Of a stretch of 61,221 nucleotides of DNA, positions 8,301 through 58,062 are shown in pieces. The notes below the pieces were generated by a model. It worked only from the letters and a program-made list of their open reading frames with translations, searched no databases and was not told the DNA's origin. Made by a program: the position numbers and the translations under genes. The first letter of the stretch is position 1, and each line of letters starts with the position of its first letter. This DNA is from a virus: the IMG/VR virus record IMGVR_UViG_3300031631_000002, positions 1 through 61,221 of that record. One strand, 5' to 3'.

Positions 8301-11300
8301 GCCTGAGGGTCTACTCTATCTCCGTACTTTGACGCCTTCTTGTCAAATATTAGGTTTATTCTCTCTAACTCAGCAGCATAAGCTGACACCCCTTTTGTCA
8401 CATTAAGATAGTCTTTCTCAAGGTCTGTAAGGAGTTTGCTCTGTTCTTTGCTTCTTGCTAAGTCCCTGCCTTGTTTATTTATGTCTCTTAACTTCTCTGT
8501 TAACAAAACCTCATCATTAAGTAACTTAATTTTATCGTACTGGGCTTTTATAGCGGCATCACCTGCGGTGCTGTCGTACTTTGCTGAGCCCCCCATAATT
8601 CGTTTTACTTCAAGCAAATAGCTTAACTCCTTCTTAGCTACTGACTGCTTGTCTTGCATTATTGCTTCTGATATAGCTAACGATTGTTTAGCATAGGCAC
8701 TTTCTGAGATGAGTTTATTCTTTAAAGTAGCATCTAACACCTTCTGCTCAATCTCGTATACAGCAGTTAGCTCTTTGCTTGAGTTGCGCTTTATATTTAC
8801 TTCCTCTAAAGAGGCCGCGATCAAGTACTGGCTGTGTTTCTCTCTGTCGGCCATTAACTTAGCGTAGCCCTTCATAGACTCACGCTCCATTAAAGCCCAA
8901 GAATCGGACGCTGATCCAGATGTTGAGTGTGTAGTTGATGCGCTCATCACAAGTGAGTCAAGGGCACTGGGAGCAGATGTTGGCATCTTTATGACCCTCT
9001 GGGCAAGTAATTCTACCTCTGCTTGTGCAGCTTTTGCTTTGGCTATCTCGTCCTCTGGAGGAATCAACCAATTAAGTACAGCCTTCCACACTGGTAGTGA
9101 TGCCGCTATTGTTCCCCCGCCTGGAATTGACGACAGTATAGCTGTGGCACCTAGCTGTTCGCCAAGGTCCATGTCTCTCAAAGAAGTAACAGCTCCAGGT
9201 CCTGCTGCTACAATACTTGCCATGGCAACTGCTATGTTTCCCATTGCAGTAGCTACCATTACAAGTCCTTGTCCGAATTCAGGGGACTCTACAACAGTCC
9301 TCAACTCGTGTAGGGTCTTTAGTAGCCCTTCGTCAGCTCCTTGATCAAAAGCGTTGATGAGCGCGTCTTCCCAAGCAACCTTTAACTCCTCTGCTGCTCT
9401 TGTTACTGTCTGAGATGTTTCTGACATCATGTCTTTAAGAAACATTGTTTCGTCTTTAGCTTTACTTATTGACTTAGTCAACCCCTCAAACTTTGAAGAG
9501 CCGTCACCTATTGCTTTAATGAAATCTTCAACAACAGTTACCCCTCCCTTCATAGCTCTAAGACCAAACAACTCCTTGTAGACCTCTACCTTCTGCTGGT
9601 CTGTCATGTCGTCCATGATGCCAGCTAACTCAGTCATAAGTTGACTGTAGTCTTTTAACCCCCCTCCTGATGTGAATGGAGAGAACTCTGCGTTCATGTT
9701 GTGCATCATCTTTGATAGCTTAGATGATGGGTCCAACAGCCTCACCATAGACGTTCTCAACGCAGTACCTGCCTTTGATCCTTTGACACCAACGTCCGCT
9801 AACAGGGCTAGTGAGGCGCTCACATCTACAAACGACATGTTTGCTATCTTACTTAACTCAGTGGTGTATGAATAAGCGTTTCCAAGTTCACCTATAGAAG
9901 TGGCAGAGGATAGCGCTGTCTTTGCTATTACGTTTGCTACCTGAGAAAGATTCAAACCGTCGGAGGCAAAGGCGTTCATTGCCGTAACTGTTAGTTTTGT
10001 AGCCTCGGCCATATCTATCTGGCCTATAACTGAGAGTCTAGATATATCTGCTATACCAATGAAAGCAGACTTCACATCTACACCAGCCTTCGTAAGCTCA
10101 CGCATCCCCCCAGCAAGCTCTGATACGTTGTGGGTAACCCCCTCAACATCGAATAACTCAGTCTTAAACTCACCTATATTAATACCGCCGCCTGTTAACC
10201 TATCAAGCGTAACAGCATAGGTTGAGTTGTACTCGAACGCAGCTCCAAGGTCATACATAGACGTTGTCAACGCCTTTACTCCTGCTACAGCAGCGTAAGT
10301 AGCGGCCATAGCTCCAACAGTAGCAAATGAACCATAAGCCAACCACAGCTTGCCAAATGAGGCAGCTGAGCCTCTTACCACCCCACTCAATAACTTCTGC
10401 TGTGTAGTTAGTTTTTTAGTTTCAGCAGTGAGCCTTTTTGTAGACCTAACCTGCTTATCAAGGGCAGCAGTTCTAAGATCCTTACCAGCCTTATCCGCAG
10501 CGGCCCTCATGGAGGCTAGGCCTTTCTCCAGGCTGTTTGTTTCGTTGAGGAGACGTATCTGTTTCTTTAAAGCCTCTGATCTTAGGTCTTTACCTGCTTT
10601 ATCCGCGGCTGCCCTTGTAGCTGCTATACCCTTCTCAAGTGTGTTTGTGGTGGTTAGTAGAACCACTTGCTTTCTTAATTCAGATGTTCTTAGGTCTTTA
10701 CCTGCTTTATCCGCGGCTGCCCTTGTAGCTGCTATACCCTTCTCAAGTGTGTTGGTTTCATGTAGTATTGCTAGTTGTTTCTTCAGTGCAGCGTAACTTT
10801 TACCTTCAGCAGATGTCTTTATGCCAATAACCCCTAACTGTTTTTCCAGTTCTAGAGTCTGTGCCTCTGCAATTCTTAGCTTTCTAGCTTCTGCTCTAAG
10901 TACTGCTCCGCCTTGACCAGAAACAACTGCCAGTTCTTTTACTACCGCTGCTTGTTTTTCTATCTCCCTGTTTAGTTGCTTCTCTACAAGAAGCAGTGCT
11001 TTGGCCTCACGCGTTGTTTTCATGAAAGAAGTATCTTTTAAGGCCTTACTTCCTTCACTATAGTATTTTTTTGTTTCTGTTGTCAGTTCTTTGAATGCTG
11101 CTTTGGCTTTTCCTGTGTTTTTTGCTAGATTTTTGAATGGGTCTTGGGTTGTTATCTTCGCCATTGCGGCGATAGCACCTTCTAACGACTTCTTAAGAGA
11201 TCTAATTTGCTTGTCTGTCAGATTGGCCTTGACGCCAATCTCTTCTATATGTTTGTATCCGTCTTTCAGACTTCTTATATCCGATGGATCTATTCCGAGA

Positions 11301-21430: not shown

Positions 21431-23137
21431 TTAAACTTTGCTATTTTTTATATTATATACAGCCATTGGTGGGCCAGCAGCGAAAGTATTTTTAGACAGC
21501 AGCCTCGATGCCATGCTGCAGTAAAGGCTTGAGTGGTGAATATGATCCTCCGCCTTCCCGTTAGGCTTCATCCATCTGTAACTTACGAACTCGTCTTCAC
21601 TGCCTCTGTAATCCCTCTGCCTGGACATAACAGACAGTTGGTCAAGCACCAGGTTGTCCATTGAAGATGCCTTGTACGCTATGAGCCCATTTACTACCTG
21701 GTCTGCGAAGTAATCAAAGGCTGGAGTCATGTTGATGTTTATTATTTTAATGTTTCCTACTGCTTCATCTTCTTTTGACTTCAATGAGAACAACTCTAAC
21801 TTTTTCGCTGACTGTGATGAGTTTGCATAAACAGCTGCCCAGGTGTTTGGGACTGTGTTTACAAAGTGAGCTGTTAACTCTGTGTAAGGTAGTAGATCTA
21901 TAACTCCTGACACACACCTGTACTCCCTTAGGAGCTTTGGCAAATCTATTCGAATAGATTTAAGTGGTAGAAACTCCACCCGGTGAATGTATAATCTTCC
22001 TTCTATTATGGATCCAATGGTAAGGCATGAGTGCTTGCCGACATCCAGGCCAAATACGTTAAGTTGTCCGGCTTCGTGGTTCTCGAACTTCACTTGGGTT
22101 ATATCTAATGCGTTCTCACGGGCTGATATTGGTTCAGCCAAGAACTGACACTTGAACTCATTCCTGTCGTCCATTTTTACCATATCTGTGATCAGATCAG
22201 ATGGTTTAACGTAGTGAGGTAAGTCAAAAGGGCCTATTTTCATGCCACGTTTTGGTAGATTTGGAGACTCTGCTACGTTAACCCACTCAGTGTGAGGGTG
22301 GCCGAATGGTGTAGGTTTGTGGCATCTTGGGCACTCTAAGTAGGATTTTGACACGTCAAGCTCTAGGTTAGTTATTTTACTGAGTGTCAGTGCCTGAAGT
22401 GGGTCGTTGTAACCCGGCAACTTAACATTCTCCCAGAAGTTTGGGAAAAATTCGTGATTGCACCGCTCACATTTCAGTATAGCCTGCCAGATGTGACCGC
22501 ACTTCTGAATTTCCAAATCTATATCTGAGTCTTTAAATCTTGGTGAGCTGAAGTATATGGTGGATTTGTGTTCCTGATGACGTTGACGAGCTGCCATGCT
22601 GGAGAGTGTCTTCATTGAGATGTATTGCAGTTCGTCAGCAACTATACATCGAAGAGGTCTTGAGATTGTTGTTGATTTTGACGTTCCGGACCCTGACAAA
22701 CCAAATATACAGGAGCCGTTTATGAGCCGCTTAAGTGATGCTGAGTCCACCTTCCTATCTTTCATGGCCTTAAGTGTAGGAGACCCGTCGATTATACTAG
22801 CTAGGCGTATTTTGAAGGTTTCAGAGGTCTGAGTTAGAGACGGCATCACAAGAGCAGCTGAAAAACCAGGTATCGTGGCGGCGTAAGCCATTAATACGCG
22901 GTATATAATCTCACTGGCTCCAGCTTGTGCTACTTTATGGCATACAAACTGCACGTCTGGATCTACCAACTCTTCCATCATCTTTAATTGATACTCATGG
23001 TGAAGAGTTGTGAAGGGTCTACCAAGTAAGAAGGTTTCCTCGGTTACAAATTTCTTTATCACGTCTTTCTGTGGTCTGATTGCAGTAGTTATTCTAGATA
23101 AAGATTGTTTTAATATTGGATTATCCGAGCAGTTCAT
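21431..23137 (-). CDS. Terminase large subunit
   Basis: The protein has 568 residues. The ATPase part has a degenerate Walker A (VCHKVAQAGASEII) and Walker B with RCIVADELQYIS. A zinc ribbon is inserted at about 225-275 (KCERC, then ECPRC), as in the GpA-type terminases. The nuclease half carries VFGLDVGKHSCLTIG, GVIDLLPYTE and KAEDHIHHSSLYC, matching the three acidic positions of the RNase H fold. It drives DNA packaging and cuts concatemers. It overlaps the small upstream gene by 17 bases. Confidence 0.93.
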   Translation of the reverse strand: MNCSDNPILKQSLSRITTAIRPQKDVIKKFVTEETFLLGRPFTTLHHEYQLKMMEELVDPDVQFVCHKVAQAGASEIIYRVLMAYAATIPGFSAALVMPSLTQTSETFKIRLASIIDGSPTLKAMKDRKVDSASLKRLINGSCIFGLSGSGTSKSTTISRPLRCIVADELQYISMKTLSSMAARQRHQEHKSTIYFSSPRFKDSDIDLEIQKCGHIWQAILKCERCNHEFFPNFWENVKLPGYNDPLQALTLSKITNLELDVSKSYLECPRCHKPTPFGHPHTEWVNVAESPNLPKRGMKIGPFDLPHYVKPSDLITDMVKMDDRNEFKCQFLAEPISARENALDITQVKFENHEAGQLNVFGLDVGKHSCLTIGSIIEGRLYIHRVEFLPLKSIRIDLPKLLREYRCVSGVIDLLPYTELTAHFVNTVPNTWAAVYANSSQSAKKLELFSLKSKEDEAVGNIKIININMTPAFDYFADQVVNGLIAYKASSMDNLVLDQLSVMSRQRDYRGSEDEFVSYRWMKPNGKAEDHIHHSSLYCSMASRLLSKNTFAAGPPMAVYNIKNSKV

Positions 23138-23402: not shown

Positions 23403-23626
23403 CGATGGATGTAACTCCTGGAGGATTTAACGGTCATTGCATTTATCTCGGCTAAGACTGCTAGGACTTCTGAGGTAACTTGATTCCCACCCCTGTGAAG
23501 TGCCATGTGCAGGTTGTTAGTTAGCTGAGATAGGTCGCCTAGCATTTCGTTAGTGTTTCTGTATTTCCCATCTCTGTGGGTTAAGTTCTTGAATTCCTCG
23601 TCTGAGAGGTTATTTGGTATTTGCAT
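23393..23626 (-). CDS. Small protein of unknown function at the head of the late operon
   Basis: The protein has 77 residues (MQIPNNLSDEEFKNLTHRDG, then LSQLTNNLHMALHRGGNQV), probably helical. It overlaps the RHH gene upstream by 17 bases and the next gene downstream by 10, so it is translated with them. No known motif. Confidence 0.6.
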   Translation of the reverse strand: MQIPNNLSDEEFKNLTHRDGKYRNTNEMLGDLSQLTNNLHMALHRGGNQVTSEVLAVLAEINAMTVKSSRSYIHRCK

Positions 23627-23768
23627 TTGGGTATTCCTTGTCGATAGCTCTGCGAATAAGTTCTGACACAGTTAGACCTGTTGATGCTGAGATTGATCTT
23701 AATCTTTCTCGTTGAGGCGGTGTTATCGTCACCCCTACCTTAATTACTTTTAGTTTTGTACGTTTCAT
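23610..23768 (-). CDS. Ribbon-helix-helix regulator of the late operon
   Basis: The protein has 52 residues. KRTKLKVIKVGVTITPPQRERLRSIS followed by GLTVSELIRRAIDKEYP (in pieces) is a clear RHH/CopG pattern: a basic beta strand, then two helices. It is the first gene of the large minus-strand operon. Its promoter holds a 13-base sequence twice, once between the -35 and -10 boxes, so it is a strong candidate autorepressor and a timer for late gene expression. Confidence 0.8.
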   Translation of the reverse strand: MKRTKLKVIKVGVTITPPQRERLRSISASTGLTVSELIRRAIDKEYPNANTK

Positions 23769-24490: not shown

Positions 24491-24608
24491 GCCGACTAAC
24501 TTTTGATAGTCGGTTGATCTTCTCTACATGCTAGATTATAAGCAAACGGAATTACAGCTCTGTGACAAGGGTATCACCCTTGTGATTCTTATAACTCCCA
24601 TATCTAGC
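24491..24608 (+). ncRNA. Structured leader RNA: two nested hairpin blocks
   Basis: GCCGACTA (24491-24498) pairs with TAGTCGG (24507-24513). Next, GCTAGA plus TATAAG (24530-24542) pairs with CTTATA (24588-24593) and TCTAGC (24603-24608), enclosing a perfect 8-bp hairpin ACAAGGGT / ACCCTTGT (24565-24583). This compound fold is not explained by any ORF. It could be a small RNA or a 5' control element. From 24609 to 24926 I see no gene, only another short inverted repeat GTAAGTA/TACTTAC and a pyrimidine-rich run before the next gene. Confidence 0.5.
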
Positions 24609-24926
24609 CTTCACGCTTGTCGTGGTCACATAAAATAGTTGAACGGCTAGTTAGTAAGTAGTCAAGCAAGATACTTACTGGTTAGATCATCAAGATACCA
24701 CATTGTTTTAACCTTCAGTAATTTCAAATTTGCAGGCATTAACACAAAGAAAAAGCGCACTTATCCCTTCTCTTTCCCTTGTGCCTGTACCTCTTTCACA
24801 TAACATTTATTTTCTCATTATCTTGGTAGAATAAAGCCCGACTATTTTCGTGATAATTATTCTGTTTATTTTCTTTTTCTTGTTCTTTTTCCTAGTTAAT
24901 AAAAAATTTTTCTTGGAGAAATAAAA

Positions 24927-25577
24927 ATGTCAAACAATCAATTTAGTAAAGCAGTAGAAAGTTTTAAAACTTATTCCCTCACAACCGCTAATTTTTTCTC
25001 TTCATGCCGCCGACAGGGTATGACTAGAAAAGATTATGAAACGTGGTCGGTGCAAGAGTTGTGTGCTATGTCAGACGTTATAAAGGAGTACGCGTTTAAA
25101 AAAGACGGTTCGGTCAAAACCGTCTCTGCCGTCTGGAAAAACTTTACTCCCGCTAAAAATAAGGCGGACCGCGGTACATTAGACTGGTCTATAGCTTTCG
25201 CGAATAGCAGTATGGTAGGTTATTCAAACTATCTGAAAGCAAACGGCCTTGATCCAAAAACTTGTAAAGCGGCACCTGTATTATTGTATCCAGTACTTGA
25301 GGCCGTTGTTAACGAGGCCGCTGTGAACGAGGCCGCTGTGAACGAGGCCGCTGTGAACGAGGCCGCTGTGAACGAGGCCACCGTGAACGAGGCCGCTGTG
25401 AACGAGGCCGCTGTGAACGAGCTAACAAGCTTAAAAGAACAGGTAATGGGTAAAGAAGAGCATTTCTTGACCGTACAAAAAGCGGTACTTGCTATCATAT
25501 CGGGAGTCAACGAGAAGAAGACAAAAGCTCAATTGCTCGAAGCAATCAATGAGATTGAAAAAATCGTTAATTGTTAA
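24927..25577 (+). CDS. Leader-region protein with VNEAA repeats
   Basis: The protein has 216 residues and is preceded by TTGGAG. Residues 1-125 form an unrecognised basic domain (FSKAVESFKTYSLTTANFF, TRKDYETWSVQELCAMSDV). Residues about 125-165 are eight tandem copies of VNEAA, predicted to be a rigid acidic helix. The C terminus is another helix (LTSLKEQVMGKEEHFLTVQ). A set of TTTACTAAA palindromes follows the gene, so it could be their binding protein, but no HTH is evident. Function unknown. Confidence 0.65.
   Translation: MSNNQFSKAVESFKTYSLTTANFFSSCRRQGMTRKDYETWSVQELCAMSDVIKEYAFKKDGSVKTVSAVWKNFTPAKNKADRGTLDWSIAFANSSMVGYSNYLKANGLDPKTCKAAPVLLYPVLEAVVNEAAVNEAAVNEAAVNEAAVNEATVNEAAVNEAAVNELTSLKEQVMGKEEHFLTVQKAVLAIISGVNEKKTKAQLLEAINEIEKIVNC
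25299..25418 (+). repeat. Eight tandem 15-bp repeats
   Basis: The unit GAGGCCGCTGTGAAC repeats eight times without gaps (first and sixth units slightly diverged), encoding VNEAA units. Because the period is a multiple of three, other frames also stay open here. Unit number may vary between isolates by slippage. Confidence 0.95.
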
Positions 25578-25594
25578 TACTAACTATAGTAAAA

Positions 25595-25624
25595 ATTCAA
25601 GTTACTAATTTTAGTAACTTGAAT
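25595..25624. repeat. Perfect 30-bp palindrome
   Basis: Arms ATTCAAGTTACTAA and TTAGTAACTTGAAT with TT between them, 18 bases after the stop of the repeat protein. The core TTACTAA..TTAGTAA is the same as in the palindromes at 25660-25841. There is no T-run, so an operator or replication element is as likely as a terminator. Confidence 0.85.
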
Positions 25625-25659
25625 AGCCGGACAAAGAACAAGAAAAAGAAAATAAACGA

Positions 25660-25841
25660 TTTTACTAAAATTTAGTAAAAATAACCGTTAAGCGATTAGT
25701 TCAGAATCGTTAACGGAATTTTTGCGTTTACTGGATTTTAGTAAGTTTTCAGAATTTACTAAAATTTAGTAAAATTTGCTAGTATCCACGCCTTGATTGG
25801 AAAGGATAACCAGCAATTACATTTTACTAAATTTTAGTAAA
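25660..25841. repeat. Cluster of three TTTACTAAA/TTTAGTAAA palindromes
   Basis: Perfect palindromes with one central base occur at 25660-25680, 25755-25773 and 25823-25841 (core TTTACTAAAATTTAGTAAA or with a central T). A half site is at 25736-25744. A further full copy is at 31988-32004 in front of an early gene. The region 25842-26012 holds no gene that I can see. Confidence 0.9.
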
Positions 25842-26012
25842 CGATATTACGTAATTCACTTGTGAGTGAATGTATCGGAAAATGAAATAAACAGAATATG
25901 CTAAAATGATTGGGTAATATTTTGGGTTAACAAAACTGAAATACTTGGAATGTTGAGCCGTAAGAATGTTTTCTATGAAAATGTTTGAGGCATGTCACTC
26001 GATCTAGCGAAA

Positions 26013-26105
26013 AGAACCAGCCTAGCAAGCTGGTTCTGATTTGCCAGCACAATTGCGTGGTGGCAAATTGGAACCAACTAACTTTTACTCTCTCCAGAGA
26101 GTAAA
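26013..26105 (+). promoter_or_regulatory. Three consecutive hairpins before a leader-region gene
   Basis: AGAACCAGC / GCTGGTTCT (26013-26037), ATTTGCCA / TGGCAAAT (26039-26068), then TTTACTCTCT / AGAGAGTAAA with a 2-base centre (26084-26105). The last is repeated, with its flanks, at 26660-26681. They could be attenuator, processing or protein-binding sites. Confidence 0.65.
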
Positions 26106-26149: not shown

Positions 26150-26521
26150 ATGATGATGACAAAATTCTTAGCAGTATGCAAAACAATAAGAAAGAACGAG
26201 AAATTCAAACGTGCCGCATTAGTAAGTAGCATGGACGGCCTACAGGACGCCCTGTGTGTCCCTTACAAAGAAGGCGTGAATTTGTATGCCTTAGTATGCC
26301 TTCATCCGTTTGAAGGCGTGAGCGGACAGCAATGGGCAGCAAGACACCTATTTGGCGGCGGATCGTCGGCAATGAAGAAATTGACAAAATTTGAAGTGGA
26401 AATAACGCCAATAATTGTGAAAGAGGAATCACGCTCGATAAGAGCAGAATTTGAGCGTTCATGCGATCCTAGGATGATCGGCTTGGGAAGTAAAGAAACA
26501 AGACTATGTAATATCTTATAA
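26150..26521 (+). CDS. Leader-region protein of unknown function
   Basis: The protein has 123 residues. AAAAGGAG precedes a run of three ATG codons (26150, 26153, 26156); any of them can be the start, and the frame is open from 26117 upstream. It is Lys/Arg-rich at the N terminus (TKFLAVCKTIRKNEKFKRAA) with LYALVCLHPFEGVSGQQWAA in the middle. No family recognised. It is framed by two copies of the same 22-bp palindrome together with the next gene. Confidence 0.6.
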   Translation: MMMTKFLAVCKTIRKNEKFKRAALVSSMDGLQDALCVPYKEGVNLYALVCLHPFEGVSGQQWAARHLFGGGSSAMKKLTKFEVEITPIIVKEESRSIRAEFERSCDPRMIGLGSKETRLCNIL

Positions 26522-26533
26522 AGGAGAAAACGT

Positions 26534-26656
26534 ATGGAAATAACATTTGAGTATTATTGTGTGCTGAGATCACACTCATGGAGCCGTCACAAAGCATATG
26601 CAAAGAGAAACAAGAGAACACATTACCCGTTCTTCTCCTATTACTTATCGACCTAA
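26534..26656 (+). CDS. Small basic protein
   Basis: The protein has 40 residues (MEITFEYYCVLRSHSWSRHK, AYAKRNKRTHYPFF) with AAGGAG before it and a 12-base gap from the previous gene. It is strongly basic and aromatic. Probably a host-takeover peptide by its place, but this is a guess. Confidence 0.5.
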   Translation: MEITFEYYCVLRSHSWSRHKAYAKRNKRTHYPFFSYYLST

Positions 26657-26659
26657 CTT

Positions 26660-26681
26660 TTTACTCTCTCTGGAGAGTAAA
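26660..26681. repeat. Second copy of the TTTACTCTC palindrome
   Basis: TTTACTCTC / GAGAGTAAA arms with 4 bases between, 3 bases after a stop codon. The flanks CTAACTTTT and the following TTTAA are shared with the copy at 26084-26105. From 26682 to 26831 I see no gene. Confidence 0.75.
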
Positions 26682-26831
26682 CTTTAATAAAGACAATGTA
26701 AAGTAGAAAATACATTAATTTCAGAAACAAGCCCTAACAAATTAACCTAGCAAATCACTATCCAACAATTACAGTTAGTTAGAAATAATTCTAACTAGTA
26801 TCACCACCTAACACACTCAAGGAGAAATAAA

Positions 26832-26930
26832 ATGTCACTAGAAGATGTAATCCGGGAAGTTCAAAAAGAAATTGATGAAGAATTCAACTGGGATCTTGAA
26901 CCTGAAACCGAACTTGACTTCGAATCTTAA
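26832..26930 (+). CDS. Acidic micro-protein
   Basis: The protein has 32 residues (MSLEDVIREVQKEIDEEFNW then DLEPETELDFES), preceded by AAGGAGAAATAAA. It is very acidic, DNA-mimic-like in charge. A terminator-like hairpin follows after 4 bases. Confidence 0.5.
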   Translation: MSLEDVIREVQKEIDEEFNWDLEPETELDFES

Positions 26931-26934
26931 ACAA

Positions 26935-26966
26935 AACAGCCGATTAAACCCACCTAATCGGCTGTT
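26935..26966 (+). terminator. Terminator-like hairpin
   Basis: A 12-bp perfect stem AACAGCCGATTA / TAATCGGCTGTT with an 8-base loop, between two micro-genes. No long T-run follows. Confidence 0.6.
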
Positions 26967-26979
26967 CACGAGGAAAACT

Positions 26980-27132
26980 ATGAAATGTCTTGCCCTAGTA
27001 TACTGGATCGTTTTATTTGCTGTAGCAGGCCAATTTGACTACAACGAGGAAATAGAATGCGAAACGCAATCAGAATTGCAATCGAATCTCCAACCTACTG
27101 GCTTTTCAAGCCAACAATCCGCTTGGAAATAG
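26980..27132 (+). CDS. Small secreted or membrane protein
   Basis: The protein has 50 residues with GAGGAAAA before it. The first 18 residues (MKCLALVYWIVLFAVAGQ) form a signal or anchor segment; the rest is Gln/Glu/Ser-rich. It ends 10 bases from the stop of the convergent helicase-domain gene, with no clear terminator between. Confidence 0.5.
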   Translation: MKCLALVYWIVLFAVAGQFDYNEEIECETQSELQSNLQPTGFSSQQSAWK

Positions 27133-27142
27133 TAAAGCACAT

Positions 27143-27505
27143 CTACTCAGGAATAAAAAATCTTCCGTTAGATTCCCGTTTATATTCAATAAAAGGAAGT
27201 TTACTAACCTTATCATAGAAATGATTTCTAGTCTCAGCCTCAAGATCATTTTCCAAGCAATATCCTTGATATTTAAAATATGCTTCAGATCTAAGAACTT
27301 TGTTCTGAAACGTCTGCATGATGTAAACTATAACTGAAACTGGTTTATGCTTTATTTCTGATTTCAGTATCTCTGAGTAGCACCTGATACTTATGTTTGC
27401 AGCTTTAGAAGTAACACTCATTTTACCAGCATCATCAACAGCCAATTTATGATAGTGATCGCCCATGTCTTTCAGCTTGTCTAAAACTTCATCTCGATAT
27501 TCCAT
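27143..27505 (-). CDS. Stand-alone copy of the primase-helicase C-terminal domain
   Basis: The protein has 120 residues and is preceded by AAAGGAAA. Residues about 55-120 (KVLRSEAYFKYQGYCLENDL, RNHFYDKVSKL, ESNGRFF) align with the C terminus of the 887-residue primase-helicase (KVLRTGMWDKYKEFCIDGS, RNEFYNKVEEV, KEDGRYF). In D5-type helicases this part is a winged-helix region thought to bind DNA. It lies just past the candidate origin. I infer a regulator or loader that binds the same DNA or the same partner. The homology is seen directly; the role is inference. Confidence 0.75.
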   Translation of the reverse strand: MEYRDEVLDKLKDMGDHYHKLAVDDAGKMSVTSKAANISIRCYSEILKSEIKHKPVSVIVYIMQTFQNKVLRSEAYFKYQGYCLENDLEAETRNHFYDKVSKLPFIEYKRESNGRFFIPE

Positions 27506-27569
27506 GTAATTTCCTTTAGTTACAAATTAAAATTCACTCCCAGCCGAGTTAGGCTACCCTAATGCCAAG

Positions 27570-27888
27570 TGGCTGACACTTTCCGGCACTTTCCTGACAG
27601 TGGGATAACCAATGTCAGTATGTCTAAGATCCAGATTCCTGACACTTTTTACAAACAATCCTCCTATAGAAAAATTTTTTCAAGGGGTATGCGACAAACA
27701 GTCCGATAACGGCAAAAACAACCGTTTCACTACAATGTGGTATCTTTTTAAAAAATATTTTTCATATAATAGTATTTAGTAATAAAGTGTCAGGATTCTG
27801 GATCTTAACCATACTACCATTAACTATCCAACTGTCAGGAAAGTGTCGGAAAGTGTCAGCCAAGGGCTTTGTCAGCAAAGTGTCAGGA
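27570..27888. other. Candidate replication origin: 79-bp inverted repeat with GTGTCAG iterons and AT-rich spacer
   Basis: Bases 27570-27648 and 27784-27862 are an imperfect inverted repeat of 79 bases. The outer 32 bases match at 31 positions and the inner 24 at 23; the middle is looser. Each arm carries several CTGACACTTT/AAAGTGTCAG units and one more stands at 27877-27888. The 135-base spacer is AT-rich, with A/T runs at 27670-27680 and 27743-27780. The whole lies in the 400-bp gap between the primase-helicase gene and its small paralogue, with no gene of its own. An origin is the best reading; a regulatory region for the downstream gene is the alternative. Confidence 0.6.
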
Positions 27889-27909
27889 CTCTCTAACACA
27901 TGGAGCAAC

Positions 27910-30573
27910 TTAAATCTCCAAACAGATCCCATTAAAGTACCTCCCATCTTCCTTACGTTCTGCGAACACATTATTGACCTCTTCAACCTTATTATAAAAC
28001 TCGTTTCTTGATACTTGCTCCATGCTACCATCAATACAAAACTCTTTATATTTATCCCACATCCCTGTCCTTAGAACTTTCATACCGTGACCAATTCTAC
28101 ACTTATCAAGTATGAACGTTTCAACTGAGTCTACAGACTGAGCCCAAGACCGAAACAATTCTCCACTATGTGCATCAACCGACTTGTTTTCAATCCACAT
28201 CTTAACACCGTTTATCAGCCAAGCAAGAACTCCAGGTAATTCATGAGCAATTATCCCTACCTCCATCCCATCTATAACTTCATTGTGGTTATGTTGAAAT
28301 TCAACTATAAACCCAGACAAACGTCTTTCAATCTCACTAGAGAATGAATCCAACCTAGGCCAAGCATTCATACTAACAACAAAACTACAGGGACACTCAA
28401 ACTCAACCGTATCCCTGAATAAATTCCTTCCGGACATCAAGTCCCGACCTGTAGCCATTTTGAATCCGGCCGTGTTCACTGGCTTATCATTTCTACCTGT
28501 GTTTTTCTTAACCTCCGGAATGAAATTAATAACTGAGTCCTTCAAACCAATAACCCGCTCCAAAACATTAAGCATACCAAAACTCAAAGCAGTAACGCGA
28601 CCTCTGGGTAGGATGCTCAACATGATTCTTTGTAGAGTTCCTTTACCAACTCCACCTGGACCCTTCATTACAATAGCCTGTTGGAGATCAGTAAGGCTTC
28701 CACACATAGCCAACCCAAGTCCTTTTTGCAGACATTCAACATTAACCACATTATGTAATAACTGATCAAACATTGGAGTTTTCATTTCAAAATCAGGTTC
28801 GAAGGTCAATTTGAATCTGGCCCCTAAATCCTTATCATATGGAATACTATCAACAGAAGGTTTGTCACCTACAACCTCTGTCCTCCAGAAGCTATTAGAA
28901 CATGGGAAGCCGTGAGAGCCTCTCCACGCGTCAACTTTATTTCCAGCGGTAGCTAGGGTGTGTTTTACTACTTGAGCATACTGAGAGCCGGTACGGCACA
29001 GCTTGACCCCTTCATACTTAGTGCCGACAGCCTTTAATAAGATTCCATTATCCTTTTTATTCCAGATAGTCTTATCAAAAGCATACATTTCACCGCCAAA
29101 AACTCTGTAGTCTTTAAACCCTTTAAGTATATCAACAGATAAACGATGGTGGGTTGACTCTGGATTAATTGTGTTAGCATCATCTTCCTCTTTTATATCT
29201 TCAGCTCTGGAAACAACAGCATCCTTTAAATCCAAACGTATGTCTGTTTTAGTGAGGTCTAATTTATCAGCTATCCTACCAGCCAGCTTACTTTCAGAGG
29301 CCTTGCTGAGTTCAGTCTTAAGTAAAAACTCCTCATACCAATCCTCAATCTCATCTCTGGGAGAGTCCTTAATCCACTGTAACAGGTCAGTAGGGTCGAA
29401 CTTAAGCTCATAAACTTCGCCGCCGTGAGCAAATGAATTAAGTATGGTACGGTCGTCATTAACAAATATCTTACACTTACCTGCACCGTATTCTGGCTCT
29501 AAAGGAGGGCGGAAACCTCCTACCTCGTTCCAGTCATCACCGTTGAGCAGGACGTCAAGAACACTAACTTCACTCATGTCATCCTTAATAAGAAAGTCAG
29601 TGCTGAGTAAAACTCCAGCCCTTCTACTTTTGACAGTTCTCTTTGCAATAGATCGTTTAACTCCCTTAGCGGTCAGTCCGTCAATACTAAGAGCATCGTA
29701 GTCTTTCTTTACCTTCTGTACTTCAGGAGAGCTCTTGAGGTCATTCAAATAGTCCTTAACCTCGTAGTCATACGCCTCTTTAATGCCGAGCTCGTCAAAC
29801 CTAGACACAGCCAACTCAGCATCCAGAACTCCTCCAGGGACGTACTCACAGCCGCGAGGAATTGTAGAGTAATCACCCTCAACAGTGCAGTCAGATTCAA
29901 AAACCAAACGCTCTGGTGTTTTGACAGCTTCATCAACAACTGTTCTAGCGAGTACATTACCAGATCTTGTGACCATATGACTCTTGAATCTTAACCAAGC
30001 AAGCTTAAATAAGTATTCGATAACAAGCTTGTCAGCGTTTCTTACTGGGAAGAATATGTGGAGGCCGTTACTAGACTTCTTACCTTCAGGATTTAGGACT
30101 CCTGCTGAAGATGATTCTCTAATCCATCTGCATAAGGTATTCCTTGACTCGCCGTCCTTTCCTATTATGCATCCTGAAAGAACTTCTTCTGTGTAGTCTA
30201 TAAATTGCCCAACCTCTTCCTCGCTCCATTCCCCATGGGCAGAGCCACCATCAACATCAAGGTACATAAGACTTACTGAGTCTGAGTTGCAGTATTTAAA
30301 ATACTCCTTAGTGCGGGATATGATTCCGTTTTCTATATCTTCTCTTCCTTTGAGTCTTATCTTAAATTCATCAAGGCCACTAACTCCAAGGACTAGTGCC
30401 TTTGATGGTTGAGCTCCTAGAGAGGTTATATAATCAGACACATCAGTGATCGGGATGTTTACTGTTCTTCCAGTAGCCCCATAAACAGCCGCCTGAGCTT
30501 TCTTACCCGACTCGCTAACACATTTATTTATAGGTCCATTATCATTAGTAATTTCACTTATAATTATATTCAT
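27910..30573 (-). CDS. Primase-polymerase / SF3 (D5-type) helicase
   Basis: The protein has 887 residues. I start at the ATG 30573, which overlaps the HTH gene's stop (TGATG) with GGGGAG before it. The N-terminal third shows an archaeo-eukaryotic primase pattern: YLDVDGG (metal-binding DxD) and SSNGLHIFFPV (SxH type). A linker of about 250 residues follows. The C-terminal part is an SF3 helicase: KGPGGVGKGTLQR (Walker A), SVINFIPEVKK (Walker B region) and CSFVVSMNAWPR (motif C). The end is a winged-helix-like domain also found as a separate gene at 27143-27505. It would prime and unwind DNA at the adjacent origin. Confidence 0.9.
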   Translation of the reverse strand: MNIIISEITNDNGPINKCVSESGKKAQAAVYGATGRTVNIPITDVSDYITSLGAQPSKALVLGVSGLDEFKIRLKGREDIENGIISRTKEYFKYCNSDSVSLMYLDVDGGSAHGEWSEEEVGQFIDYTEEVLSGCIIGKDGESRNTLCRWIRESSSAGVLNPEGKKSSNGLHIFFPVRNADKLVIEYLFKLAWLRFKSHMVTRSGNVLARTVVDEAVKTPERLVFESDCTVEGDYSTIPRGCEYVPGGVLDAELAVSRFDELGIKEAYDYEVKDYLNDLKSSPEVQKVKKDYDALSIDGLTAKGVKRSIAKRTVKSRRAGVLLSTDFLIKDDMSEVSVLDVLLNGDDWNEVGGFRPPLEPEYGAGKCKIFVNDDRTILNSFAHGGEVYELKFDPTDLLQWIKDSPRDEIEDWYEEFLLKTELSKASESKLAGRIADKLDLTKTDIRLDLKDAVVSRAEDIKEEDDANTINPESTHHRLSVDILKGFKDYRVFGGEMYAFDKTIWNKKDNGILLKAVGTKYEGVKLCRTGSQYAQVVKHTLATAGNKVDAWRGSHGFPCSNSFWRTEVVGDKPSVDSIPYDKDLGARFKLTFEPDFEMKTPMFDQLLHNVVNVECLQKGLGLAMCGSLTDLQQAIVMKGPGGVGKGTLQRIMLSILPRGRVTALSFGMLNVLERVIGLKDSVINFIPEVKKNTGRNDKPVNTAGFKMATGRDLMSGRNLFRDTVEFECPCSFVVSMNAWPRLDSFSSEIERRLSGFIVEFQHNHNEVIDGMEVGIIAHELPGVLAWLINGVKMWIENKSVDAHSGELFRSWAQSVDSVETFILDKCRIGHGMKVLRTGMWDKYKEFCIDGSMEQVSRNEFYNKVEEVNNVFAERKEDGRYFNGICLEI

Positions 30574-30776
30574 CAACAATCTCCCCAAAGCAATTCTGGG
30601 TAGTCAACAATGCCAAAAGTCTTCGAGACAATTATGTGAGCGTTCCTTAAAGTGACGCACTTTATATTTTCCTTGCAGATGTTGTAAGTTGTAGCTCTTG
30701 AGATTCCTAAATACTCTGACAATTGGTCGTAATTTAACTTCTTGTTTTTGCGGTAAGTTTCAAGCTTCATGGTCAC
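30573..30776 (-). CDS. HTH regulator upstream of the primase gene
   Basis: The protein has 67 residues. KLNYDQLSEYLGISRATTYNICKE is a helix-turn-helix of Cro/XRE or excisionase type (Q-x3-A-like, then G-I-S-x-A-T-x-Y). GAGGTG precedes the ATG. It is co-transcribed with the primase-helicase and faces the early plus-strand operon across a region with symmetric promoter-like boxes, so it may switch between the two. An origin-binding accessory role is also possible. Confidence 0.75.
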   Translation of the reverse strand: MTMKLETYRKNKKLNYDQLSEYLGISRATTYNICKENIKCVTLRNAHIIVSKTFGIVDYPELLWGDC

Positions 30777-30802
30777 CTCTGTTTTATATATAGAATATTT
30801 TG

Positions 30803-30843
30803 TTGACTTCTGTGAACCTACAAGGTAGTTTAGCTGAAGTCAA
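30803..30843. promoter_or_regulatory. Face-to-face promoter-like boxes in the divergent control region
   Basis: TTGACTTC (30803-30810) and its mirror GAAGTCAA (30836-30843) frame CTACAAGGTAG. Read rightward, TTGACT is 17 bases before TAGTTT; read leftward, TTGACT is 17 bases before TAGGTT. The -10 boxes are weak, so these are candidate promoters or a palindromic operator for the early operon and the HTH-primase operon. Confidence 0.5.
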
Positions 30844-30906
30844 GTGTAAATGTTGAATATGCAGCAAACCATTCGTCAACGAATGGAAAACTAAAAGGAG
30901 AGCAAA

Positions 30907-31188
30907 ATGAGAATGGAAATGAAGTGCGTGAAATGTGGCGGAGATGACCTCTCAGTAGAGGACACTTCAGTAGAGTACGTTGAGCATAAAGAGGCCTTAG
31001 GAAGTGTGGTAGCTGTGTATCAAGACTCCTCATTCAAAGCAGCTCACATAGAGCCAAAGGATACCTTCTTTGCTGGTGAAGAAGGCACCCACATACTAGT
31101 AAACTTAACTTGTTACTCTTGTGGCGCTGAGATGACTCTGTATGTGTCAGCACCAACTGGTTATGGGGTGGAGGTTGGGCTAGATTAA
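30907..31188 (+). CDS. Zinc-ribbon protein, first gene of the early plus operon
   Basis: The protein has 93 residues with AAAGGAG before the start. Two Cys pairs, KCVKCGG and TCYSCGA, about 65 residues apart, frame an acidic middle part. It may bind a metal and act on host transcription or repair, but no family is recognised. Confidence 0.65.
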   Translation: MRMEMKCVKCGGDDLSVEDTSVEYVEHKEALGSVVAVYQDSSFKAAHIEPKDTFFAGEEGTHILVNLTCYSCGAEMTLYVSAPTGYGVEVGLD

Positions 31189-31226
31189 TCGTCTATTGCT
31201 CAACTTATTTCGTGAGGTTGGCTGAG

Positions 31227-31397
31227 ATGGTGGCGGAAGAGTGCGAGGCATCCGTTGAGAGCCTCGACTTACTTTCTCAGATGCTGCAGGACATCCAACA
31301 CAAATTAGAGGGTACTGATTTTCAAGCTGAATCTGAATTAGCTTCAGAGAACATTAAGAAGTTGAACGCTTTAACAAAACTATTCGTAGGCGAATAG
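31227..31397 (+). CDS. Small helical protein
   Basis: The protein has 56 residues from ATG 31227, with GAGG nine bases before it (a GTG at 31212 is possible but lacks a ribosome site). It is acidic and helical (ASVESLDLLSQMLQDIQHKL). Function unknown. Confidence 0.55.
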   Translation: MVAEECEASVESLDLLSQMLQDIQHKLEGTDFQAESELASENIKKLNALTKLFVGE

Positions 31398-31410
31398 AAA
31401 GGAGAACAAA

Positions 31411-31647
31411 ATGGACGTAAATATATCAGAGACGAGATTAGTAAAGAGAGGAAATAAGAATCTGTTCAATAAGCACTTGTTTATGTCTGGTGATAGGGAA
31501 GAAATCTACAGCGGGGACATAATTGAGTTTAATATCGCAGATGAAGTATATCCCTACTCTGGTACCGTCTCAACATTGCAAGGACTAAGAGTAGAGTGTT
31601 TTAACACGATTTTAAACCAATGGGTGTATCATAACTTGGTAGCATAA
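31411..31647 (+). CDS. Early protein of unknown function
   Basis: The protein has 78 residues with AAAGGAGAACAAA before the ATG. The text SGDREEIYSGDIIEFNIADE followed by a short beta section suggests an SH3-like or OB-like small barrel (as in YopX-type phage proteins), but the match is weak. Confidence 0.6.
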   Translation: MDVNISETRLVKRGNKNLFNKHLFMSGDREEIYSGDIIEFNIADEVYPYSGTVSTLQGLRVECFNTILNQWVYHNLVA

Positions 31648-31653
31648 TTAACG

Positions 31654-31700
31654 TTCACCCAGGTTGCTGGGAAACAAGGCAAAATAAATGAAAAGGAGAA
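31654..31700 (+). repeat. 47-bp direct repeat, first copy
   Basis: Identical over 47 bases with 32223-32269. Here it is untranslated leader in front of the next gene and includes its ribosome site. The related phrase ATTAACGTTCACCC recurs at 31967-31980. Confidence 0.9.
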
Positions 31701-31705
31701 ACAAA

Positions 31706-31957
31706 ATGAAAACTTACATCACGGTAGAGTGTCCAGAGCAGGATAATATACACAGGTTCATATTGAATGCTGTGTCTTTACAGTCAGGGCGGTTGAGAGT
31801 AGACAGAGCGTTTATGAAGTTTGGTATCGAACCAATGGTTATTACATCTGACTTGCGTCCTGATTGGCACTTTAATAAATACGGAGTCCTCCATACTGTA
31901 ACTATAAATAACAAGTATGAACTACGTGGCAACATGCACACAAAGGCATTCTACTAG
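31706..31957 (+). CDS. Early protein of unknown function
   Basis: The protein has 83 residues from ATG 31706, chosen because AAAAGGAG precedes it. It begins MKTYITVECPEQDNIHRFI and has no recognised motif. Its leader carries the 47-bp repeat. Confidence 0.6.
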   Translation: MKTYITVECPEQDNIHRFILNAVSLQSGRLRVDRAFMKFGIEPMVITSDLRPDWHFNKYGVLHTVTINNKYELRGNMHTKAFY

Positions 31958-31987
31958 ATTTAGAATATTAACGTTCACCCAGATCTT

Positions 31988-32004
31988 TTACTAAATTTTA
32001 GTAA
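31988..32004. promoter_or_regulatory. Distant copy of the TTACTAAA palindrome
   Basis: TTACTAAATTTTAGTAA stands 20 bases before an early gene, the same palindrome as the cluster at 25660-25841 about 6 kb away. A protein that binds the cluster should also bind here. Confidence 0.75.
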
Positions 32005-32023
32005 TCTTCAAAGGAGAATCAAA

Positions 32024-32260
32024 ATGGCATTTCAAACACATTCAGAACCATGTGGTTTCAACCCACACTATAGGCAGGGGTTCGGTGAAGAAGTATCACG
32101 AAAGTATGCCTTACTGTGTAAAAATAACAGAGGGCTTACGAGAGCTCTCAGGAAGAGAGCTTATAGAGTTATAGCAGACTTAATCGAAGACGATTTCCCA
32201 ACAACCGTACAGCTTGGTACGTTTCACCCAGGTTGCTGGGAAACAAGGCAAAATAAATGA
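32024..32260 (+). CDS. Early protein of unknown function
   Basis: The protein has 78 residues and is preceded by AAAGGAG and the TTACTAAA palindrome. It is basic in the middle (NRGLTRALRKRAYRVIADLI). Its last 13 codons (FHPGCWETRQNK) are part of the second 47-bp repeat copy. Confidence 0.6.
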   Translation: MAFQTHSEPCGFNPHYRQGFGEEVSRKYALLCKNNRGLTRALRKRAYRVIADLIEDDFPTTVQLGTFHPGCWETRQNK

Positions 32261-32269
32261 AAAGGAGAA
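32223..32269 (+). repeat. 47-bp direct repeat, second copy
   Basis: Identical to 31654-31700. Here most of it is coding, the 3' end of the gene before it, plus the ribosome site of the gene after it. The first copy therefore looks like a gene-end fragment left by recombination. Confidence 0.9.
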
Positions 32270-32274
32270 TCAAA

Positions 32275-32574
32275 ATGAAAATTAAATTAGCTTTAATTAT
32301 CCTACTTATGGCCTCGACAGTACAAGCAGGCACCCCAGAAGAGGCATGTAAATCCTACCATGAGTTAGCAACTTCATTAATGGACGCCAGACAGTCAGGA
32401 GTATCACTAGTAAAAGCTATGAGCATAACAGATCGCAAATTCCTGCAGGACTTAACTATCAAGGCATACAAGCAGCCAAGATACAGCATGGAAGAAAATA
32501 AAAAGCGAACTACAGAGGATTTTGCTAACAGAATATATCTGGAATGCTACGAAGCGCTCTCAAAGGAGAAATAA
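32275..32574 (+). CDS. Exported protein with signal peptide
   Basis: The protein has 99 residues from ATG 32275 (AAAAGGAG before it). MKIKLALIILLMASTVQAG is a clear Sec signal with a predicted cut after VQA. The mature part is helical with two Cys residues (EEACKSYHEL, YLECYEALSK) and would be periplasmic. Early exported phage proteins can interfere with later infection; the true role is unknown. Confidence 0.7.
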   Translation: MKIKLALIILLMASTVQAGTPEEACKSYHELATSLMDARQSGVSLVKAMSITDRKFLQDLTIKAYKQPRYSMEENKKRTTEDFANRIYLECYEALSKEK

Positions 32575-34387: not shown

Positions 34388-35341
34388 ATGTGTAATTTCT
34401 GGAGTTGTATCGTACTAAAAGACAAGACAGTTATAAGTGAGATTGGCATTGACAACCACCACGAGTTGGTTGAGATGTTTAATCTGGAGGACAGCAGTGA
34501 CATAAGATCACAATTAAAGTTTGCCAAGGTAGAAATAGTACCACCTGAGAACGATCCATTCAAACCCATTAGTGAGTGGAAGTTTGAAGTTGATGAAAGG
34601 GTAAAGCCTGAGTGGTTTTCACCTGCGCATGAAGACGTTTGTTGGATTAGGCTGAAAGAAGTATTGAAAGAGGTTTTGATAACCGAAGACGTTGCTGAGT
34701 TAACAGGAAGAAAAGGATTGTTTCTGAAAGATTGTGTAGTAGGCAAACTAACAAATTCAGTTGTTCAGAAGATGTTCAACTCTTCAGTTGTTCAGAATAT
34801 GTCCGACTCTTCAGTTGTTCAGAATATGTCCGACTCTTCAGTTGTTAAGAGGATGTCCGGCTCTTCAGTTGTTCAGGAGATGTTCGACTCTTCAGTTGTT
34901 CAGAATATGTTCGACTCTTCAGTTGTTCAGAGGATGTACGGCTCTTCAGTTGTTCAGAGGATGTACGGCTCTTCAGTTGTTCAGAGGATGTACGGCTCTT
35001 CAGTTGTTCAGAATATGTTCGACTCTTCAGTTGTTCAGAATATGTTCGACTCTTCAGTTGTTAAGAGGATGTCCGGCTCTTCAGTTGTTCAGGAGATGTT
35101 CGACTCTTCAGTTGTTCAGAATATGTTCGACTCTTCAGTTGTTCAGAAGATGTTCAACTCTTCAGTTGTTCAGGAGATGTTCGACTCTTCAGTTGTTCAG
35201 GAGATGTTCGACTCTTCAGTTGTTCAGGATATGTCCGGCTCTTCAGTTGTTGTTAGACACATAGGACATACAACTATAAAAGACAACGCAGTGACACTAA
35301 CGTGGGACACAGGCACAGCTAACCTAACAAGGAGTAAATAA
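34388..35341 (+). CDS. Nonapeptide-repeat protein (SSVVQxMxx)
   Basis: The protein has 317 residues and is preceded by GAGGAG. Residues 1-120 are a conserved-looking phage domain beginning MCNFWSCIVLKDKTVISEIG, which I have met in other phage proteins that carry similar tails. Residues about 122-290 are 18 to 19 tandem nonapeptides of the form S-S-V-V-Q/K-x-M-F/S/Y-D/G/N. The regular small and hydrophobic positions suggest a solenoid such as a beta-helix. The C terminus returns to unique sequence (HIGHTTIKDNAVTLTWDTG). The function is unknown; a binding or DNA-mimicking rod is possible. Confidence 0.75.
   Translation: MCNFWSCIVLKDKTVISEIGIDNHHELVEMFNLEDSSDIRSQLKFAKVEIVPPENDPFKPISEWKFEVDERVKPEWFSPAHEDVCWIRLKEVLKEVLITEDVAELTGRKGLFLKDCVVGKLTNSVVQKMFNSSVVQNMSDSSVVQNMSDSSVVKRMSGSSVVQEMFDSSVVQNMFDSSVVQRMYGSSVVQRMYGSSVVQRMYGSSVVQNMFDSSVVQNMFDSSVVKRMSGSSVVQEMFDSSVVQNMFDSSVVQKMFNSSVVQEMFDSSVVQEMFDSSVVQDMSGSSVVVRHIGHTTIKDNAVTLTWDTGTANLTRSK
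34754..35258 (+). repeat. 27-bp tandem repeat array (18-19 units)
   Basis: Units begin TCTTCAGTTGTTCAG and differ mainly at the codons for residues 5, 6, 8 and 9 of the nonapeptide. Identical unit pairs and triplets occur in different orders, which points to unequal recombination. Another frame is also open across the array because 27 is a multiple of three. Confidence 0.95.
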
Positions 35342-57536: not shown

Positions 57537-58062
57537 ACTGATAGGGCTTGCAGGGCCGGCTAGGGTTGGTAAGAGTACTACAGCAGACACGTTGTGTAGA
57601 GAAGATGGTTATGTAGAGCTTGCTTTCGCTGATCCGTTGAAAGAGTCTCTCATAGCACTAACCGGGTTAGATCGTAAATACTTCTATGACCAAAAGTTCA
57701 AGCATGCCTATGTAGAGCTGATACAAATGTCCCCGAGAGAATTGATGCAGATATTTGGCACTGAGTTTGTAAGAGAAAAGGTAAGGAGAGACTTTTGGGT
57801 TGCTAGGCTGAGAGAGAGGATCCTAGACGCAGAATACATTAACAAGATAGTTGTAAGCGATATCAGGTTCAACGACGAGGCCGCTTTGATAAGGGAGCTT
57901 GGTGGAAATGTTATTATCTTGAGTAGAGACTCAATCGACTACGATCTTGACCACGCTTCTGAGGCTGGAATAACAAAAACAGCCGGAGACATACTTATAA
58001 CTCTACCAGAGGGGTTGGACGAAGCAGAAGAAGCCGTCATTACCATACTTGGTGGATTATAA
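57529..58062 (+). CDS. Deoxynucleoside monophosphate kinase
   Basis: The protein has 177 residues from ATG 57529 (GGTGGAAG before it; a GTG at 57520 is less likely). LIGLAGPARVGKSTTADTLC is the P-loop, then AFADPLKESLIALTGLDRKY and MSPRELMQIFGTEFVREK, as in the T5 Dnk-type kinases. VVSDIRFNDEAALIRELGG is the later Asp/Arg motif. It supplies dNDPs for phage DNA synthesis. Confidence 0.88.
   Translation: MSRLIGLAGPARVGKSTTADTLCREDGYVELAFADPLKESLIALTGLDRKYFYDQKFKHAYVELIQMSPRELMQIFGTEFVREKVRRDFWVARLRERILDAEYINKIVVSDIRFNDEAALIRELGGNVIILSRDSIDYDLDHASEAGITKTAGDILITLPEGLDEAEEAVITILGGL

Follow-up and report, generated by a model that had tools for sequence, protein, structure and literature searches.

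Does a palindrome repeated in the non-coding leader of a phage form a set of operators for one DNA-binding protein, or does it act in the RNA transcribed from it? The window analysed here is an IMG/VR virus contig of 61,221 bases, classed as linear and carrying no completeness estimate. Leftward structural genes, encoding the tape measure, major head protein, protease, portal and terminase, fill its left arm, and rightward early and replication genes, including those for a family A polymerase, SbcC/SbcD-like proteins and a ligase, fill its right arm. We found no near match among 50,697 phage records, and the best matches of the terminase are 22–25% identical, mostly from Vibrio and Pseudoalteromonas phages of 77–85 kb. 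The phage carrying the palindromes has not been described before and belongs to a lineage without a close cultured relative.

Our comparison of the leader rests on one close relative, the IMG/VR contig 3300035698_012812 (L007/L010, hereafter L010). Three further related contigs, including 3300033153_006491 and 3300033153_010029 from a portal search, stop short of the sites, and searches with the leader hairpins and the leader DNA yielded no additional relatives. In a more distant relative (L053:1-1360), a different first rightward gene replaces the gene for the VNEAA-repeat protein, and the leader is rich in TGCCGCCTGCTGCTTG-type repeats.

Palindromes in the leader

The palindrome TTTACTAAANTTTAGTAAA occurs in three perfect copies, S2, S3 and S4 (Table 1), each with the design TTTACTAAA-N-TTTAGTAAA, in which two 9-bp arms flank a single central base (9-1-9, 19 bp in total). 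The three copies span 180 bp of non-coding DNA, uninterrupted by genes. A search of the whole window for the core, as the initial annotation had proposed, returned five matches with up to three mismatches, compared with 0.10 in whole-window shuffles. In 5,000 dinucleotide shuffles of the 300-bp region, the same palindrome arm was never found three times and was found twice in 0.06%, and the repetition thus exceeds chance. The annotation had counted four perfect palindromes within 250 bp, together with a half site, in an even arrangement. Three perfect copies of the motif bear out part of that count, the fourth palindrome (S1) being related but different. The supposed half site is a full-length copy with three mismatches here and four in L010, which indicates a decaying copy. 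The arrangement is uneven, with the perfect copies 94 and 68 bp apart from centre to centre (66, 28 and 68 bp when the decayed copy is counted).

Table 1 Features of the leader, its surroundings and the distant copy (window coordinates)
Feature	Position	Strand	Remark
Terminase large subunit	21431-23137
RHH gene	23610-23768	minus	RHH_3, E 1e-6
29-nt inverted repeat flanking VNEAA gene (97%), left arm	24864..24892	.	kept in L010
VNEAA-repeat protein gene	24927..25577	+	216 aa; upstream neighbour
S1, 30-bp palindrome	25595..25624	.	ATTCAAGTTACTAATTTTAGTAACTTGAAT; after VNEAA gene; co-varying arms
29-nt inverted repeat flanking VNEAA gene, right arm	25629..25657	.	3 bp before S2
S2, operator-like palindrome	25661..25679	.	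TTTACTAAAATTTAGTAAA; identical in L010
Decayed copy	25727..25745	.	TTTACTGGATTTTAGTAAG
S3, operator-like palindrome	25755..25773	.	TTTACTAAAATTTAGTAAA; covers -35 position of weak extended -10 promoter candidate
Candidate extended -10 element	25777..25785	+	TGCTAGTAT; directly behind S3; weak, rank 163 window-wide, not evidence alone
S4, operator-like palindrome	25823..25841	.	TTTACTAAATTTTAGTAAA
First gene downstream of leader	26153..26521	+	122 aa
D5-type primase-helicase	27910-30588	minus
XRE-type gene	30573-30770	minus
S5, distant copy	31987..32005	.	TTTACTAAATTTTAGTAAT; one mismatch; 19 bp before ATG at 32024
Small early gene behind S5	32024..32260	+	78 aa

Perfect symmetry stops at an arm of 9–10 bp in every copy, unlike in S1. 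The single arm, TTTA-C-TAAA, is itself a near-palindrome. The site therefore admits a second reading, as a pair of 9-bp units spaced 10 bp apart, or roughly one turn of the helix; within the window, this two-unit arrangement is confined to S2–S5. As RNA, S2–S4 fold weakly (−3.9 to −5.8 kcal/mol). The initial annotation had set terminators aside for want of T-runs, and we likewise found no T-run behind the palindromes on the + strand; S2–S4 have weak, AT-rich stems and are absent from the terminator scan.

All of S2, S3, S4 and S5 are kept in L010, and the sole change within S2–S4 is a T-to-A substitution at the central base of S4. This is a position that a dimer would not read, and the change therefore counts in favour of operators. 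Differences between the two phages number 0–4 per 100 bp in the leader (25701–26100) and up to 24 in the VNEAA coding sequence. Loss of the copies in close relatives had been named as grounds for abandoning a common binding protein; S2–S4 are kept in the one relative that allows the comparison, whereas the conservation of S5 says little because the stretch around it is about 99% identical in L010.

Beyond this pair, a scan of 84,980 species genomes for the exact site gave 37 loci, scattered and each with a single copy. Most of them are in AT-rich organisms, a single Pantoea locus being the only gammaproteobacterial one. The exact site did not recur within a host genus in these genomes, and this scattered, single-copy distribution indicates that in its exact form it does not mark a host regulon. 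Among 2.9 million viral contigs, the site cluster was found in L010 only; the cluster is common to no host regulon, database phage or plasmid. Single sites in the viral contigs L005/L008 (T4-like), L006 and L009, which have at most one weak gene match to the window, were judged to be chance occurrences. The sole paper combining TTTACTAAA with the word 'operator' concerns LmrR, and there TTTACTAAA is part of a promoter fragment and is not an operator.

S1 differs from these sites in several respects. Its common part with the S2–S4 motif is limited to TTACTAA/TTAGTAA, its spacer is 2 nt instead of 3 nt, and its arms are 14 bp long. In L010 it reads ATTCAGATTACTAAAATTAGTAATCTGAAT, with two base pairs outside the shared core altered on both sides and pairing intact, and it folds at −14.9 kcal/mol (z −7.1). 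A T-run accompanies it on the minus strand only (TTTTTAC) and is broken in L010. Because its arms co-vary between the two phages, we read S1 as most probably a hairpin in the RNA downstream of the VNEAA gene, not an operator copy, and removed it from the set in which it had originally been placed.

Other repeats lie in the same region. The 29-nt inverted repeat flanking the VNEAA gene is polypyrimidine to one side of the gene and polypurine to the other, and could serve long-range RNA pairing or delimit an invertible or mobile cassette. Before the 26153 gene, positions 26013–26079 can form two strong, mutually exclusive RNA hairpins (AGAACC / GGTTCT / GGAACC), which are unchanged in L010 and are reminiscent of a switching leader RNA. 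Around small accessory genes, at 26084–26105 and 26660–26681, there is a second repeated palindrome, TTTACTCTCT-n2-AGAGAGTAAA; L010 has three matching regions, near 11059, 11711 and 12128, around different genes. Repeats also occur within coding sequences: the number of VNEAA pentapeptide repeats (25299–25420) differs strongly between the two phages, the array being longer in the window, and 27-nt tandem repeats in the 34388 gene (34810–35251) encode an SSVVQ-M-D-like nonapeptide array.

The distant copy and the spacers of early genes

The initial annotation had placed a fifth copy about 6 kb away, before an early gene, and S5 agrees with this description. Both ends of its spacer are common to the spacers before the 31706 and 32275 genes, and the palindrome replaces GTTGCTGGGAAACAAGGCAAAATAAATG in the middle. 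Inverted repeats with arms of at least 7 nt within 80 nt of the ATG precede six of the nine genes from 26153 to 32275, S5 being counted among the six, where 0.38 were expected; the same test on later genes gave 1 of 33 (0.83 expected). The hairpins before the genes neighbouring S5 are unrelated to it in sequence. Since unrelated inverted repeats stand before neighbouring early genes, S5 may act as an RNA hairpin; its sequence identity with S2–S4, on the other hand, points to a common reader or to the copying of a module. Its role is ambiguous on this evidence and may be that of either an operator or a hairpin.

These spacers speak for a different account, in which the palindromes form hairpins in the spacers preceding early genes and act in the transcript, on its stability, its processing or the access of ribosomes. 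The 14-bp arms of S1, its compensating changes and its folding energy fit this account, as does a second leader hairpin at 24565–24583, both arms of which change in L010; S5 occupies just such a spacer, 19 nt from an ATG, in the stretch at 26.1–32.3 kb where hairpins are frequent. The account is likely for S1 and a serious one for S5, but as an explanation of the whole set we regard it as unlikely. S2–S4 are grouped in one non-coding stretch without an intervening gene, their weakly folding sequence is itself kept with no compensating change, and, as the other spacer hairpins are unrelated in sequence, the identity of S5 with S2–S4 would go unexplained unless the palindrome had been copied. 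A bolder scheme, to which we give little credence, would combine the two: the early region would use interchangeable palindromic spacer modules before its genes, one protein would read the shared module in two forms, as leader DNA and as a hairpin in the RNA ahead of the distant gene, and copying of modules between spacers would rewire early control.

Candidate binding proteins and known systems

If S2–S4 are operators, which protein binds them? The initial annotation had listed RHH and HTH proteins among the candidates, but each of the two examined has different repeats before its own gene. Two copies of GGAATACCTCTTT lie upstream of the RHH gene and a 19-nt inverted repeat (30803–30843) lies upstream of the XRE-type gene; both are unlike the 19-bp site and are presumably the operators of the RHH and XRE proteins themselves, and we accordingly rejected these proteins as poor candidates. 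The Rha/Ant-like 50693 protein (phrog_4936, E 1.5e-39) and an HTH protein at 58049 could also be regulators, and the 41762 and 36860 proteins are further candidates; none of the listed candidates is tied to the 19-bp site. A ParB-like reading of the 42715 gene was discarded, as Pfam gives a weak DnaJ domain only. For the VNEAA protein, we found no relatives beyond L010 in phages, plasmids, genomes or solved structures. Neither this protein nor the 26153 protein has a family or a solved relative, and their AlphaFold models (pLDDT 47 and 51) are too poor to use. The 61-kb record, which is possibly a fragment, contains no match to a CI/LexA S24-type repressor (PF00717), an integrase or tyrosine recombinase (PF00589), or the ParA (AAA_31), ParB_N and protelomerase families.

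At OL and OR of phage lambda, three near-identical palindromes of 17–19 bp, bound by a dimer, lie adjacent with short spacers and flank the repressor gene. The present leader likewise has three near-identical palindromes in an early control region, but the distances between them are 94 and 68 bp, and the record yielded no S24-type repressor. In Cluster A mycobacteriophages (L5, Bxb1), a repressor site at the early promoter is accompanied by distant stoperators within early operons (PMC6550527, PMC9283540), and here, too, copies of a site lie both at an early control region and at a distant place in an early operon. Stoperators, however, are asymmetric 13-bp sites, mostly in one orientation to transcription and many per genome, whereas the present site is a symmetric 19-bp palindrome in four intact or nearly intact copies. 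In the Bacillus phage SPbeta, the element SPBRE is repeated in several intergenic promoter regions and bound by MrpR (PMC10516654); it was recognized in silico some 24 years ahead of the discovery of its binder, which is not an ordinary HTH repressor (PMC10516654). One conserved element repeated in the intergenic regions of one phage is the feature shared with our window. The sequence and host differ, SPBRE has about ten targets as against two loci here, and MrpR is tyrosine-recombinase-like, a family with no PF00589 match in this possibly fragmentary record. By analogy, the site cluster would work like the SPBRE/MrpR and Cluster A arrangements, yet it is a member of neither by sequence, symmetry or binder family.

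Proposed operators and the remaining alternatives

As in an operator cluster, several near-identical symmetric sites lie in a non-coding control region, and S2–S4 are kept in a relative, here one close relative. On these grounds we lean towards S2–S4 being a cluster of operators through which a dimeric regulator encoded by the phage would control the rightward leader transcript, S5 being a possible second target. A phage-encoded dimer, or dimer of dimers, would bind TTTACTAAA-N-TTTAGTAAA between the VNEAA and 26153 genes. The bound regulator would repress or tune the rightward leader or early transcript, possibly one starting from the weak extended -10 candidate adjoining S3, and through S5 it would also act within the early operon, before the 32024 gene. 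Repression is the usual role of such site clusters. A promoter scan of the region gave 25 promoter-like sites, compared with 23.8 expected from shuffles, no excess over chance, and revealed no convincing promoter at the sites. Protein binding, the phage origin of the binder, the promoter controlled and the direction of control are what we infer from this pattern. For S2–S4, the original proposal that a single DNA-binding protein has several targets fits the evidence best: the copies have a common 9-1-9 palindrome, are symmetrical no further than the core, leave the central base free, keep their sequence in L010 and fold weakly as RNA. The proposal no longer extends to S1, and S5 is ambiguous.

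It is improbable that the sites instead serve replication or partition, as origin iterons or as centromere-like sites of a phage persisting as a plasmid. In support of such a role, the palindromes are repeated, the non-coding DNA around them is AT-rich, and the gene for the D5-type primase-helicase and an inverted repeat of 79 nt lie 2 kb away. Their spacing is irregular, however, and a single copy lies 6 kb away. No ParB_N or AAA_31/ParA match occurs in the record, so that the ParA and ParB genes that stand beside repeated parS sites in ParABS systems were not found, and DnaA-box-like sites number two in the window, with none in the leader. The large inverted repeat beside the primase would be a better origin candidate: it has 87% identical arms (27570–27648 and 27784–27862) around a 135-nt centre, contains AAAGTGTCAGGA repeats, lies directly beyond the primase-helicase gene and is also present in L010.

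AT-rich palindromes are typical host operators, and phages do borrow host regulators. We nevertheless consider use of the sites by a host transcription factor quite improbable, as copies of the exact site in the 84,980 genomes are scattered and single, and a phage with several identical copies more typically has them for a regulator of its own. That the palindromes are packaging recognition sites (pac/cosB-like) is very improbable. In favour of this role, the non-coding DNA on the terminase side of the genome is that of the leader. Against it, the sites lie about 2.5 kb from the terminase gene, with the genes for the RHH and VNEAA proteins in between, and one copy stands 6 kb further on, within an operon.

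An operator cluster is an ordinary type of switch, plausible and unsurprising to a specialist. If this reading of S2–S4 is right, it yields a specific operator sequence and a handful of candidate regulators for this lineage. The identity of the binder and the pattern of spacer palindromes are the parts worth following. The VNEAA protein, which has no detectable relatives outside this pair of phages, may represent a novel kind of DNA-binding protein, for which the history of SPBRE and MrpR offers a precedent, and the palindromes just before most early genes of the first block pose a testable question about how early genes are controlled in this lineage.
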